34,305 nt of DNA, from positions 1 to 34,305 of the forward strand of contig CAMNMC010000107.1 in the NCBI GenBank assembly GCA_946544235.1. The letters run 5' to 3'. The DNA is from an uncultured Lachnospiraceae bacterium. GTDB taxonomy: Bacteria; Bacillota; Clostridia; Lachnospirales; Lachnospiraceae. Positions 6,052 through 9,755 of this stretch are shown here, in pieces. A model generated the notes under the pieces. That model made no database searches. It saw nothing but the letters and a program-made list of their open reading frames with translations, and was not told the DNA's origin. The first letter of the stretch is position 1; every line of letters starts with the position of its first letter. Both the position numbers and the translations under genes were made by a program.

Positions 6052-6570
6052 TTATGCCATATAGTTGTATGAGCCGGATGCGTTCATATTCTGAGGTGTG
6101 TTCATTACGTAGATTGCAGGCATCTTTGGCTTTCTTGCAAGCTTTACGATTCCAATGATCAGGAAAACGATACTAAGGATAAACATCAATACTGCAAATA
6201 AACCGGAACCGGCGTCAACTCCGCCTGAACGATATACATGCATTGCCTGGTTCTCAAGACTTGTGAATTTATTAACCTCTGCTATTGCGATGATAAAGCT
6301 TATGATACCGAGTGCTAAGAAGATAAGACCTGATATGGTTTTCTTCTTTCTCAGCTGAGCATAGGTTTCTGCCGGACTGCCCATTCCTGTCGGGTTCCAT
6401 GCGCTGTAACTGTTTGCAGCTGCCTGATACTGGTTGTTTCCGTTGTTTGCTGCTGAGTACTGACCATAGTTACCGGTCGAAGGCGTATAATACAGACCGC
6501 TTGTACCTGCCTGATACTGATTCTTTGATGCATACATTCCATTCTCTCTCATTGTCATTTCGTTATTCAT
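6052..6570 (-). CDS. small two-helix membrane protein, putative target of the membrane-tethered sigma factor
   Basis: 172 residues; not recognised as a named family. Residues 1-75 are hydrophilic and rich in Asn, Gln, Tyr, Ser and Ala with repeated NQYQA-type words, suggesting a disordered or low-complexity arm. After the basic stretch LRKKKT, two membrane helices follow (TISGLIFLALGIISFIIAIAE and LFAVLMFILSIVFLIIGIVKLA), separated by an outside loop of about 25 residues, then a basic KLARKPK and a short tail. The start at 6570 is chosen over 6636 because GGAGGAAG lies just upstream. The promoter region (6617-6657) shares a 41-bp element with the sigma operon at 9715-9755, so co-regulation is likely. 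Function unknown. Confidence 0.75.
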   Translation of the reverse strand: MNNEMTMRENGMYASKNQYQAGTSGLYYTPSTGNYGQYSAANNGNNQYQAAANSYSAWNPTGMGSPAETYAQLRKKKTISGLIFLALGIISFIIAIAEVNKFTSLENQAMHVYRSGGVDAGSGLFAVLMFILSIVFLIIGIVKLARKPKMPAIYVMNTPQNMNASGSYNYMA

Positions 6571-6616
6571 AGTTTCTTCCTCCGTTTTTTCTGCCCCTTG
6601 GGCTGTATTTTTTGTT

Positions 6617-6657
6617 CTTATACCTATAAGACACATGAAATCCGGATTAGATTTTAC
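6617..6657 (-). promoter_or_regulatory. putative ECF-type promoter, copy 1 (upstream of the two-helix membrane gene)
   Basis: Read on the minus strand, three blocks match the element at 9715-9755: TAAAATCTAA, then 6 variable bases, TTTCATGTGTCTTA, 3 variable bases, GTATAAG. In total 32 of 41 positions are identical. The arrangement resembles an alternative-sigma promoter with a -35-like AATCTAA, about 14 bases, and a -10-like GTCTTA; no sigma-A hexamers fit. The likely transcript start lies about 50 bases before the ATG at 6570. Promoter activity and its sigma factor are inference. Confidence 0.65.
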
Positions 6658-6793
6658 AAATTTTAAAAAATTTTGAAAATTTTTGTAATTTAATGAAAAA
6701 TATTTTTATGAGAAGAATAAATTTTAAAATTCAATAGAAATATTATACGATTTTCATAATTATATGGTTGTGAGGTATGATGGGAATATAAAA

Positions 6794-6815
6794 GGGCGTG
6801 ACATTTGTCACGCCC
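6794..6815 (-). terminator. terminator of the sigma-fusion operon
   Basis: GGGCGTGACA (6794-6803) and TGTCACGCCC (6806-6815) form a perfect stem. On the minus strand it is followed by TTTTATAT, and it lies 43 bases past the stop codon of the sigma fusion. Confidence 0.85.
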
Positions 6816-6858
6816 CGGTCGATTGGTTTAAGAAGATATAAGAAGATATATATTATAA

Positions 6859-9477
6859 TTATTTTTCAGTCGGTGCAATATAAACATGCGTATCAGCGGT
6901 TTTATAAATGATATAAACCTTGAGTCTGCCCTCACTATCGATAATGTCTTCGTAAGAGAAACCGTTAAGGTTTTGATCAAATGTCAGAATATCATATGTA
7001 ATCCCATAATCCTTAAGAGAATCGTAGGCTGCCCCCGGCATAAGAATGATATATTCGCCGTTTAATGCATTCGCAGCATCACCAACAGAGTTAGCGGTCT
7101 TAAAGCTGATCGTATAACGGTCAGGACGCTTCAGCTCCGAAATATCCGCGGTTGCTTTTGCTTCAGAACCATCACCCATCATTGACATATAGTATTCACG
7201 ATAGGATATGTGTTCATCATCCGGGAAGGAAAGCTCCGTACCGCCTCGTCCGTTGCCTGTTATAAATGATATTGTATTTTTGCCCAATACAGAGAAAAGG
7301 TTTTCATACAGCTTACCTCTGTCAGGATCTGCACCAAACAGATATTTTATCGAAATATCGGTCTCGTATGATTTTCTGAACAAAAGCTCAGCGTCATCGC
7401 CGACAAATCCGCGGTTTTTGAGGTATTTCAGATTTGATATGATACCATTCTCGTCATCGAGCTCGTATTCGGCGTAATTGTACGCATCTTCGGTACTTGT
7501 CACGGTTCCGCTGCCATCAGTTTCCACATATGTAATATAAAGCGTCTGAGCTCCGCCGGCACCGGTGGCTTTTCTTTCACCGTAAAGATATTTAACAGGT
7601 GTCAGATCCTTAACTGAATATACTGAAAAATAGCTTTGATATGGGAGGAGACTCATGGTTTCATAAATATACCCTGCAACGATATATTTCTCTCCGTTCT
7701 GGCTCATTAAATATATGTCGTCTATACGCTGCTTATGATCAATGTCCGGATAAAGCTTTGCAGAAGCGGTGATGGTTACTTCGTCATCATCATCGCATTC
7801 ATACAGCTCGGCAGTAAATTCATAATATTCATAAGTGTAAGGCTCATCGCCGAGCTCTGTTTTGTCATTTCGTCTTATGACAAGCATCTCAGAGATGCCA
7901 TCATTATCAAAATCCTCGATCTTAGCTTCACAAATACCGGAATAGTCGTAAGGATAATCTGCCAGTGTCGGCCAGCTGTCCGATTCTTCAGGTCCGTAAT
8001 TTTTTATTGTGTAGGCCTCAAGTGTTAAGGTATCCGGATTAAAGGTATATCCGGTTACGGTGCAGTCCGTATCGAAGACCTCGATAGTTGTCTGTGAAGG
8101 ATCGTAAATATTATATTTTGGGATCAGGTCTGTTTCCAGGTAATCCCGTAGGGTTTCGTCTGCAGATACTTTGGTAAAACCACTTTCCGAAGAGGCTGTT
8201 TCGGTTTTTCCGTTATCTTCACCGAAGATGTCGGAAGCTGTACTGTCAGAACCTCCTGCATACTGAGAAGATGATCCGTCCTCGTCATCAATATAACCGG
8301 TTACAGTTTCATTTTTAGTATCCTTATCATCCTTGTTTGAGTTTACGAGGGTGACTGTTCCTACGGTAAGCCCGCCGACAAGTACGACACTCGCTGCAGT
8401 TACAGCTACCTTTCCGGCAATTGTACCGAAAATCCCTGCCTTTGCAGCGGTACTGCCAGAAACTGCGGCCACCTTTGAAACTGCTGCTCCGGCTGTCAGG
8501 GCACTTACGGATGAACCTGAACCAGCAGCTCCGGCAGCGGCACCTGCTGTAGCTGAACCCACTCCGCCGGCCGCAGCGTTTACACTTGATGCACCTGAGC
8601 CTGCACCCGCATAACCCGTACCGGTAGTACCGGATACTGCTACTGAACCGGCTGAAGAAGCACCGGATGCAGAACCGGAACTCACCGTACCGGATGCAGC
8701 CCCTGCAGCACCGGCTGCCGCGGCACCGGCCTCGTAAATATATGATCTTTTCTGCAATTGCATAAGTATAAAGAGAAGAACAACAGGAGAGACGCTGTAA
8801 AGCCTGTAACCTCTTTTCTCGAGTTCCTCGCCCTTGGCTTTGATCTTCTTTCTTCCGTAGTTAAGACGTGAGGTAACTGTATTTTTACTGCATTCGAGAG
8901 CAGTTGCGATCTCATCTACACTATGGCCTTCGAGATAGAACATGATCATGCATATCTTCTGTTCTTCCGGAAGGGAGGAAAGCAGCTCATTTACCAGATC
9001 GGCGGTTTCCTGCTTGGAATATCTTTCTTCGGGATTGAAATCAATCCTCTCATCAACTATAAGATCCTGAAATTCTGTAATATCGCCTTCGCCGTCATCA
9101 TGGTCCATTTCCGAGAACAGAACCGGATTCTTAACTCTCAGATAGTTCTTGGCTGTATTTGCAACTATCATACCAAGCCAGGAATCGAACTTCTCAGGAT
9201 CATTCAGCATATTAAGATTCTGGAAGGCTTTCATGTATGCATCCTGAAGAACATCGGCCACGGTGTCATCGTTCTTTACATATTTCTGCGCAACATAGTA
9301 TTTTGCCTTATAGGTTTTATCATAAAGGTAAGTGAAGCCATCATTATTGCCATTCAGCGCAGCACGTACGGCATCACCTATACTGTTGATACGCCCGGGC
9401 TGCATCACCGGTGTGCCGCAGTTTCCGCAAAAGGCAGCATCATCTTTCAAAACCTGTCCACAATTTCTGCAATACAT
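6859..9477 (-). CDS. zinc-ribbon / ECF-type sigma-70 / transmembrane / ectodomain fusion protein
   Basis: 872 residues, over four times the length of an ordinary ECF sigma factor. Residues 1-24 are a zinc ribbon (Cys3, Cys6, Cys17, Cys20). Residues about 47-114 are sigma region 2 (KYVKNDDTVADVLQDAYMKA, NDPEKFDSWLGMIVANTAKN), and about 160-215 region 4 with HTH (LEGHSVDEIATALECSKNT). Residues 245-345 are Ala/Gly/Ser/Thr-rich. One membrane helix lies at about 356-378. The remaining ~490 residues are predicted to lie outside; they are acidic and contain DFDNDGISE (522-530), a calcium-loop-like DxDxDG motif as in FG-GAP/VCBS-type repeats. The start follows GGAGGG and sits 4 bp after a 49-residue ORF. 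I infer a membrane-anchored sigma factor with its own sensor. Whether it is released by proteolysis or works while tethered is unknown. Confidence 0.85.
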   Translation of the reverse strand: MYCRNCGQVLKDDAAFCGNCGTPVMQPGRINSIGDAVRAALNGNNDGFTYLYDKTYKAKYYVAQKYVKNDDTVADVLQDAYMKAFQNLNMLNDPEKFDSWLGMIVANTAKNYLRVKNPVLFSEMDHDDGEGDITEFQDLIVDERIDFNPEERYSKQETADLVNELLSSLPEEQKICMIMFYLEGHSVDEIATALECSKNTVTSRLNYGRKKIKAKGEELEKRGYRLYSVSPVVLLFILMQLQKRSYIYEAGAAAAGAAGAASGTVSSGSASGASSAGSVAVSGTTGTGYAGAGSGASSVNAAAGGVGSATAGAAAGAAGSGSSVSALTAGAAVSKVAAVSGSTAAKAGIFGTIAGKVAVTAASVVLVGGLTVGTVTLVNSNKDDKDTKNETVTGYIDDEDGSSSQYAGGSDSTASDIFGEDNGKTETASSESGFTKVSADETLRDYLETDLIPKYNIYDPSQTTIEVFDTDCTVTGYTFNPDTLTLEAYTIKNYGPEESDSWPTLADYPYDYSGICEAKIEDFDNDGISEMLVIRRNDKTELGDEPYTYEYYEFTAELYECDDDDEVTITASAKLYPDIDHKQRIDDIYLMSQNGEKYIVAGYIYETMSLLPYQSYFSVYSVKDLTPVKYLYGERKATGAGGAQTLYITYVETDGSGTVTSTEDAYNYAEYELDDENGIISNLKYLKNRGFVGDDAELLFRKSYETDISIKYLFGADPDRGKLYENLFSVLGKNTISFITGNGRGGTELSFPDDEHISYREYYMSMMGDGSEAKATADISELKRPDRYTISFKTANSVGDAANALNGEYIILMPGAAYDSLKDYGITYDILTFDQNLNGFSYEDIIDSEGRLKVYIIYKTADTHVYIAPTEK

Positions 9478-9481
9478 ATTG

Positions 9482-9631
9482 TTAACCCTCCATGCTTTCC
9501 ATAAGCATCTTATAGATCAAAAGCTTAAGCTTTGTATTTTCATCATGGTTCTGCATATCGTATCTCATAAGCATTATAAACCATTTTAAGTATTTATCAT
9601 CCATTTTTTCTGTATCTTTGTTTTCTTTCAT
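9482..9631 (-). CDS. 49-residue small protein, translationally coupled to the sigma fusion
   Basis: Small ORF starting MKENKDTEKMDD and ending MLMESMEG, rich in Lys, Asp, Met and Leu, and mostly predicted helical (KYLKWFIMLMRYDMQ, KLKLLIYKMLME). It has an excellent ribosome site, AAGGAGG, 9 bases before its ATG. Its TAA is 4 bases before the ATG of the 872-residue sigma fusion, and the fusion's own GGAGGG lies inside its last codons, so the two are probably translated together. No membrane segment or known family is recognised. A co-factor or anti-sigma-like role is possible by position only. Confidence 0.7.
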   Translation of the reverse strand: MKENKDTEKMDDKYLKWFIMLMRYDMQNHDENTKLKLLIYKMLMESMEG

Positions 9632-9714
9632 ACATATACGCCTCCTTAGATCATATAACTTTGTTAATGGTATCCGTAAGATATTTAGGCATGTGTTACC
9701 ACGCCTCGAATATC

Positions 9715-9755
9715 CTTATACTATTAAGACACATGAAAGGGGTTTTAGATTTTAT
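9715..9755 (-). promoter_or_regulatory. putative ECF-type promoter, copy 2 (upstream of the sigma operon)
   Basis: Minus-strand partner of the element at 6617-6657, with the same three blocks (TAAAATCTAA, TTTCATGTGTCTTA, GTATAAG) at identical spacing. It lies about 85 bases upstream of the 49-residue ORF. Location before the sigma gene itself suggests positive autoregulation, which is common for ECF sigma factors. Confidence 0.65.

Follow-up and report, generated by a model that had tools for sequence, protein, structure and literature searches.

Two ECF-type promoter elements flanking the gene of a membrane-fused sigma factor in a Lachnospiraceae bacterium, and their probable recognition by that factor

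Sigma factors of the extracytoplasmic function (ECF) type that are fused to a membrane segment, ECF promoters and autoregulation are all already known kinds. For the groups ECF48, ECF52 and ECF53 of Actinobacteria (type SCO4117 of Streptomyces coelicolor), autoregulation and proteolytic activation have been proposed, as outlined in extracts of two papers (PMC8999054, PMC5826349). An extract of the first also states that release of IutY of Pseudomonas putida (ECF243) through proteolysis by Prc and RseP has been shown, and places ECF262 (SFB89493.1, Ruminococcus albus) under "Others" among the ECF groups with regulatory extensions (PMC8999054). Extracts of a third paper report that a few sigma contacts set ECF promoter specificity, that loop L3 is the -10 specificity loop and that swaps of this loop redirect -10 recognition (PMC8103513). 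Here we describe a 34,305-nucleotide stretch of DNA from an uncultured Lachnospiraceae bacterium (contig CAMNMC010000107.1 of assembly GCA_946544235.1), the whole of which is called the window. It contains two copies of a 41-bp element, between which a membrane-fused ECF sigma factor is encoded. Judging from sequence comparisons, we are highly confident that the two elements are promoters read by this sigma factor, one serving its own operon and the other a gene for a membrane protein with two predicted helices.

As far as the extracts describe them, ECF48, ECF52 and ECF53 resemble the window protein in that an ECF sigma factor is fused via a transmembrane region, C-terminal to the sigma domain, to an extracytoplasmic part. 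Their zinc finger lies in the C-terminal extension, whereas Pfam detects here only an N-terminal zinc ribbon, where one is present. ECF52 is described there from Actinobacteria only, whereas the present hosts are Lachnospiraceae and other Clostridia. The motif given for SCO4117 is CSGYN-17-SRHA at 29 promoters, in contrast to TAAAAY-N17-YGTC and a regulon that looks private here. Like IutY, as portrayed in the extract, the window protein unites a sigma factor and a membrane-bound part; in IutY, however, that part is an anti-sigma factor serving Gram-negative iron-starvation cell-surface signalling, whereas Pfam found no anti-sigma domain in the window sigma factor or in seven scanned relatives. 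ECF262, represented by its table row only, shares a clostridial host and a regulatory extension, and the present family may be ECF262.

On the minus strand, positions 6617-6657 and 9715-9755 are identical at 32 of 41 positions, in runs of 10, 14 and 7 bases plus one isolated match. This confirms the likeness reported in a preliminary description of this DNA, which had proposed that the element is the promoter read by the fused sigma factor. The parts of each copy are as follows.

6614..6656, minus strand: element 1, predicted ECF-type promoter of the two-helix gene; -35 TAAAAT at 6656-6651, 17-bp spacer, -10 TGTC at 6633-6630, start point predicted near 6619; highest matrix score of the window (31.8).
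9712..9754, minus strand: element 2, predicted ECF-type promoter of the sigma operon; -35 TAAAAT at 9754-9749, 17-bp spacer, -10 TGTC at 9731-9728, start point predicted near 9717; second-highest matrix score of the window (28.0).

The start points were inferred from conserved positions 38-39 of a matrix described below, and that of element 2 would lie 86 nt from the ATG of a 49-codon open reading frame (ORF). The hallmarks of ECF promoters are AAC at -35 and CGT at -10; the window boxes, TAAAAT and TGTC, are each one base off, and the family boxes are TAAAAC and CGTC or TGTC. We searched the whole assembly (2.87 Mb in 119 contigs, 82% complete). The 41-bp pattern was found at two places with at most three mismatches in its 24 fixed bases, and its reversed control at none. 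The random or coding occurrences throughout the genome that the preliminary description had regarded as fatal to its proposal are thus absent for the full element. A looser 38-base pattern found both window copies without mismatch and one further place with three mismatches, on contig C36.

To place the elements among relatives, loci encoding related sigma factors were taken from a scan of reference genomes, in which the best 80 of 140 were kept, giving 77 loci (these and other loci are cited below by L numbers). By their record titles, these belong to Lachnospiraceae, Oscillospiraceae/Ruminococcaceae, other Clostridia or Bacillota. Removal of seven duplicates of earlier loci left 70 for a spacer test; in this set L074 and L083 share part of a contig, and L068 is closely related to L069, as L075 is to L077. 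TAAAAC-N17-YGTC occurred 81 times in 51 of the 70 loci, whereas no other spacer length between 8 and 30 gave more than nine occurrences (range 0-9). Almost all sites (77 of 81) were intergenic, and 63 had a predicted gene start within 250 nt downstream, at a median of 58 nt, compared with 7 of 66 for 20 control spacers. Per 10 kb there were 6.55 sites up to 500 bp from the sigma gene and 0.29-0.30 at distances above 3 kb, a drop of about 20-fold between 0.5 kb and 3-8 kb. A matrix of 43 bp was then derived from 76 such sites in other organisms, none of them from the genome of the window. When the window was scanned, this matrix scored the two elements at 31.8 and 28.0; the third place scored 7.1, and the best of five shuffles 11.6.

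Other -10 forms were also seen among the relatives, in several cases at loci that lack a site of the TAAAAC-N17-YGTC kind. TGTT occurred twice each in L115, L117 and L130 and once in L112, CGTT in L127 and L133, and TATC twice in L080 and once in L092; L125 had one CATC and one TATC.

The first base of the -10 box was linked to the sigma factor of the same locus. Of 30 loci holding at least two intergenic sites, 27 showed the same base at every site (shuffle mean 11.4; none of 10000 shuffles as high), in a test that treated loci as independent, set aside seven coding sites and included one chance site in the window row. In a first set of 52 loci, all 27 with Asn at sigma residue 111 had T, and among the 25 with C the residue was Asp in 24 and Thr in one. 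This set omitted L080, L074, L083, the mixed loci L063 and L093, and loci lacking TAAAAC, while the window and L033 were kept with TAAAAT. The test was repeated on 79 aligned loci, without L080 and L095, with sites located while the -10 bases were ignored. By locus, Asn111 was then accompanied by T in 32 and by a mixture in one (n=33), and Asp111 by C in 28 of 28; Ser and Thr went with C, Arg with T, and Ala with a mixture. On a tree made without residues 107-115, residue 111 and the first -10 base each changed eight times, and all seven independent pairs on supported branches agreed. A larger tree (79 rows, 63 with both traits) gave nine changes each and six supported independent pairs, with a mean agreement of 5.9 and no opposed pair.

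The last base of the box varied with residue 91. It was T in six loci, all with Phe or Tyr, and C in 59 loci, with Leu in 58 and Val in one; the loci with TGTT and CGTT carry Phe or Tyr at this residue. The base following TAAAAC also varied, with residues 187 and 181 of region 4. The corresponding codons in the window are:

9145..9147, minus strand: codon of sigma Asn111, covarying with the first -10 base.
9205..9207, minus strand: codon of sigma Leu91, covarying with the last -10 base (Leu/Val with C, Phe/Tyr with T).

The departure of the window TGTC from CGT goes with Asn111. This residue aligns with the second Asn of NTAKN (in the stretch NTAKNYL) in Escherichia coli sigma-E, and residue 91 with the preceding stretch. 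We take residues 111 and 91 to be numbers 84 (Asn84) and 64 of RpoE, from an assumed offset, and residue 91 presumably lies in loop L3. A residue-to-base code of ECF sigma factors was reportedly set out by Todor et al. in 2020, and specificity loop L3 by Campagne et al. in 2014; unlike that code, the present rule comes from natural covariation within one membrane-fused family.

The outside-trained matrix ranks the window pair first and second, residue 111 tracks the first -10 base, the same -35, 17-bp and -10 architecture recurs near relatives, and sites within one locus tend to have the same first -10 base. For these reasons the fused sigma factor encoded in the window very probably reads the element. 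The recurring architecture, the sharing of the base within loci and the covariation with region-2 residues thus support the preliminary proposal. Its two corollaries, autoregulation and one membrane-protein target, would follow from the positions of element 2 before the sigma operon and element 1 before the two-helix gene; the former agrees with the positive autoregulation typical of ECF sigma factors.

If the element were instead the operator of a DNA-binding regulator, with an ordinary promoter elsewhere, conservation beyond the -35 and -10 boxes would be accounted for, as it is seen here. The preliminary description found no sigma-A hexamers. This is correct for element 2, but the -35 side of element 1 is overlapped by two weak sigma-A-like matches (9/12, minus strand, 6689-6660 and 6679-6651), in a region that has 18 such matches compared with 10.7 in shuffles. 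However, the rigid 17-bp spacing, the gene starts a median of 58 nt downstream and the covariation between region-2 residues and bases are properties of a promoter, and we consider an operator very unlikely.

The genome itself supplies other candidate readers. A full-protein search matched 10 of 37 genomes of the genus at E <=1e-10, including the window's own, which encodes two further related fused sigma factors, on contigs C6 (71% identity in the sigma part) and C43 (36%). The C6 paralog likewise has Asn111, and its own upstream element, TAAAAT...TTTCAGATTGTC, with a core place about 97 nt before the paralog operon, resembles the window pair. With three related fused sigma factors in one genome, the ECF promoters of the window could be read wholly or partly by another ECF sigma factor, chiefly the C6 paralog. 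Yet the C6 element has other bases than the window pair in the spacer and downstream, its matrix score is 10.9, compared with 31.8 and 28.0 for that pair, and the first -10 base is shared more within a locus than between loci. Recognition by another factor is accordingly improbable, though it is the strongest of the alternatives we considered. Also in favour of the main reading, paralog 3 has Thr111 and three CGTC elements, and its relative in L043 has Asn111 and three TGTC elements.

Recognition by the fused sigma factor of the window also fits the local distribution of sites. Eleven places in the assembly carry the core TAAAAY-N17-TGTC, and only the window pair exceeds a matrix score of 12; a coding place on C57 scores 11.4, the C6 place follows, and the other seven score at most 3.6. 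With a stricter core, controls were overall at least as frequent as matches in 61 genomes of the genus, while the genome of the window gave three matches (control 0), all at the paralog-3 locus. The regulon looks private to its locus, with two promoters found in the incomplete assembly.

At the third fused sigma gene, on C43 (L034:3560-6985), the three CGTC-type elements are followed by a small ORF, a gene for a secreted-looking product and one resembling lipoprotein genes. In L043:8580-8730, the bases immediately 3' of the element that precedes a membrane gene make up an inverted repeat together with the -10 region (CACTTGTCTA ... TTAGACAAGTG); a hairpin or a second level of control is possible there.

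Several observations weigh against recognition of the elements by the fused sigma factor. The bare core is not enriched in the assembly, with 11 places for TAAAAY-N17-TGTC against 29 in the reversed control, and 7 against 19 for TAAAAC-N17-YGTC. The window -35 box is TAAAAT, not the TAAAAC of the family. The -10-blind scan found no site in 14 of 79 aligned loci, though some hold other or lower-scoring ones. Two loci break the residue 111 rule in part: L063 (Asn) has one CGTC among three sites, and L093 (Asp) one extra TGTC. The last -10 base and residue 91 changed three times each on the tree, with only two supported independent switches. Finally, the 49-aa protein of the window is a weak member of its family, with a leave-one-out E of 0.12.

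Since the bare core is not enriched genome-wide, it is the location of the sites and the wider matrix that carry the signal. The same lack of enrichment would suit a likeness that arose by chance, through a dispersed repeat or as the relic of a duplication. Such an origin is nevertheless extremely improbable, given that the genome has two copies only, that a matrix trained elsewhere picks exactly both, and that, as the preliminary description had held in excluding a duplication of the loci, the downstream genes have no evident relation. Copy number, spacing, matrix and covariation all speak against it. The repeat or duplication, operator and sigma-A promoter readings were each judged unlikely.

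The order on the minus strand is element 2, the 49-codon ORF, the 872-codon sigma gene, a terminator-like hairpin, element 1 and the 172-codon two-helix gene.

9482..9631, minus strand: 49-aa microprotein gene, first of the sigma operon; unannotated, no Pfam match.
6859..9477, minus strand: membrane-fused ECF sigma factor, 872 aa (Pfam, NCBIfam, hydropathy).
6793..6816, minus strand: terminator-like hairpin that separates the sigma operon from the two-helix gene, past the sigma stop codon and ahead of element 1.
6052..6570, minus strand: gene for a two-helix membrane protein of 172 aa with an Asn/Gln/Tyr-rich N-terminus, the predicted target of element 1.

Both elements lie 5' of a gene start, as had been claimed, with two corrections. 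The first gene behind element 2 is the 49-codon ORF, not the sigma gene, which begins 4 nt past its end. For element 1, the listed ORF start at 6636 falls inside the -10 region, and the likely start is at 6570, behind GGAGG. The position of the hairpin (6816-6793) suggests that the two-helix gene is probably a transcription unit of its own.

In the sigma protein, Pfam places a zinc ribbon at residues 2-24, region 2 at 51-115 and region 4 at 162-212, and TIGR02937 scores above its cut-off; regions 2 and 4 alone, with a short linker between, are as expected of an ECF (group IV) sigma factor. Region 4 is followed by a long Ala/Gly/Ser-rich linker, one transmembrane helix predicted by hydropathy from about residue 357, and an outer domain of about 500 aa, which had no match in the Pfam scan. 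The same hydropathy criterion predicts exactly one helix past residue 225 in 73 of 75 family proteins of at least 400 aa. Two scanned relatives have leucine-rich or choline-binding repeats in their outer domains, which suggests envelope sensing. Neither neighbour of the sigma factor belongs to a known anti-sigma family: Pfam recognises nothing in the 49-aa protein, and the two-helix protein reaches no Pfam or NCBIfam cut-off. Either may be a new kind of anti-sigma factor, and a cotranscribed separate anti-sigma factor is, in the extract on this point, not required of every ECF sigma factor (PMC8103513).

A homologue of the two-helix protein (E 9.5e-21) is encoded in Eubacterium sp. RGIG2622 (L035/L058), directly upstream of a related sigma gene and behind TAAAAA-N17-TGTC; the other loci searched gave no convincing match, the next having an E of 0.013. 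Membrane proteins are common behind the sites of relatives. Small ORFs apart, 38 of 46 downstream genes encode a membrane or signal segment, compared with 330 of 718 ORFs of the same loci; the 46 include five sigma genes, and one gene is counted twice (L074/L083). Several downstream targets in L064, L066, L085 and L074 are zinc-ribbon membrane proteins, resembling the N-terminal zinc ribbon of the window sigma factor.

In 34 of 80 loci, the window among them, the sigma gene is immediately preceded by an ORF of about 38-65 codons, as identified with a profile made from 23 such ORFs (E <=0.01); 19 of these 34 loci are seeds and 15 are not. Eleven more loci have a profile match elsewhere or at another spacing. 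Read by eye, the small ORFs have two helix-like stretches. In leave-one-out tests, 18 of the 23 seeds were recovered at E <0.01; besides the window copy, L041, L101, L118 and L043 fail. The window copy and two others had no Pfam match, and five others, two of them Pfam-scanned, had no NCBIfam match.

Eight regions fetched from stricter-core matches contained nine sites. The site in L201 precedes a 40-aa ORF that resembles the microproteins by eye, and that in L195 a secreted-looking protein; of the two in L197, one lies 310 nt ahead of a secreted-looking protein and the other has no gene start behind it. Those in L198 and L202 are in coding sequence, and that in L200 has no gene start. In L196 and L199, the same promoter precedes or lies close to a microprotein recovered with the profile, and no sigma gene was detected there.

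Taken together, these comparisons suggest the following pathway. RNA polymerase carrying the fused sigma factor would recognise TAAAAT, a fixed 17-bp spacer and TGTC, and would start about 11 nt further on. From element 2 it would transcribe the sigma operon, the 49-aa protein first and then the sigma factor, in positive autoregulation, and from element 1 the neighbouring two-helix membrane protein as a separate unit. The cytoplasmic sigma half appears to be joined through its one transmembrane helix to the outer sensor domain, and this tether would hold it inactive. Release would come through regulated intramembrane proteolysis in response to an envelope signal, the most likely switch judging from IutY and the proposals for ECF52. 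The small protein probably tunes sigma activity or stability; it may act by inhibition, by stabilisation or within the sensing path.

In open-licence literature, covered by titles and the starts of abstracts, we found no recognisable description of the promoter, the family residue rule, the small protein or ECF262, and no described promoter, target or signal for the fused sigma factors of Clostridia. We tentatively raise the possibility, with more doubt than conviction, of an undescribed and widespread one-protein family of Clostridia in which sensor, helix and ECF sigma factor are combined, with a promoter code specific to each paralog, a regulon that hardly extends past the operon itself and adjacent genes for membrane or secreted proteins, and a new class of two-helix microproteins of 40-65 aa that regulate the tethered sigma factor directly.

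Fused sigma factors of this kind are carried by many gut and rumen species of Clostridia. The element provides a readable promoter for the family, together with a residue that predicts a promoter base, and the three paralogs with different promoter letters in one genome are a ready test bed. It further draws attention to an unannotated microprotein encoded in many of these operons, as well as to the membrane or secreted proteins that each sigma factor may control. With these candidate targets and the microprotein identified, the sensing function of the family becomes testable.

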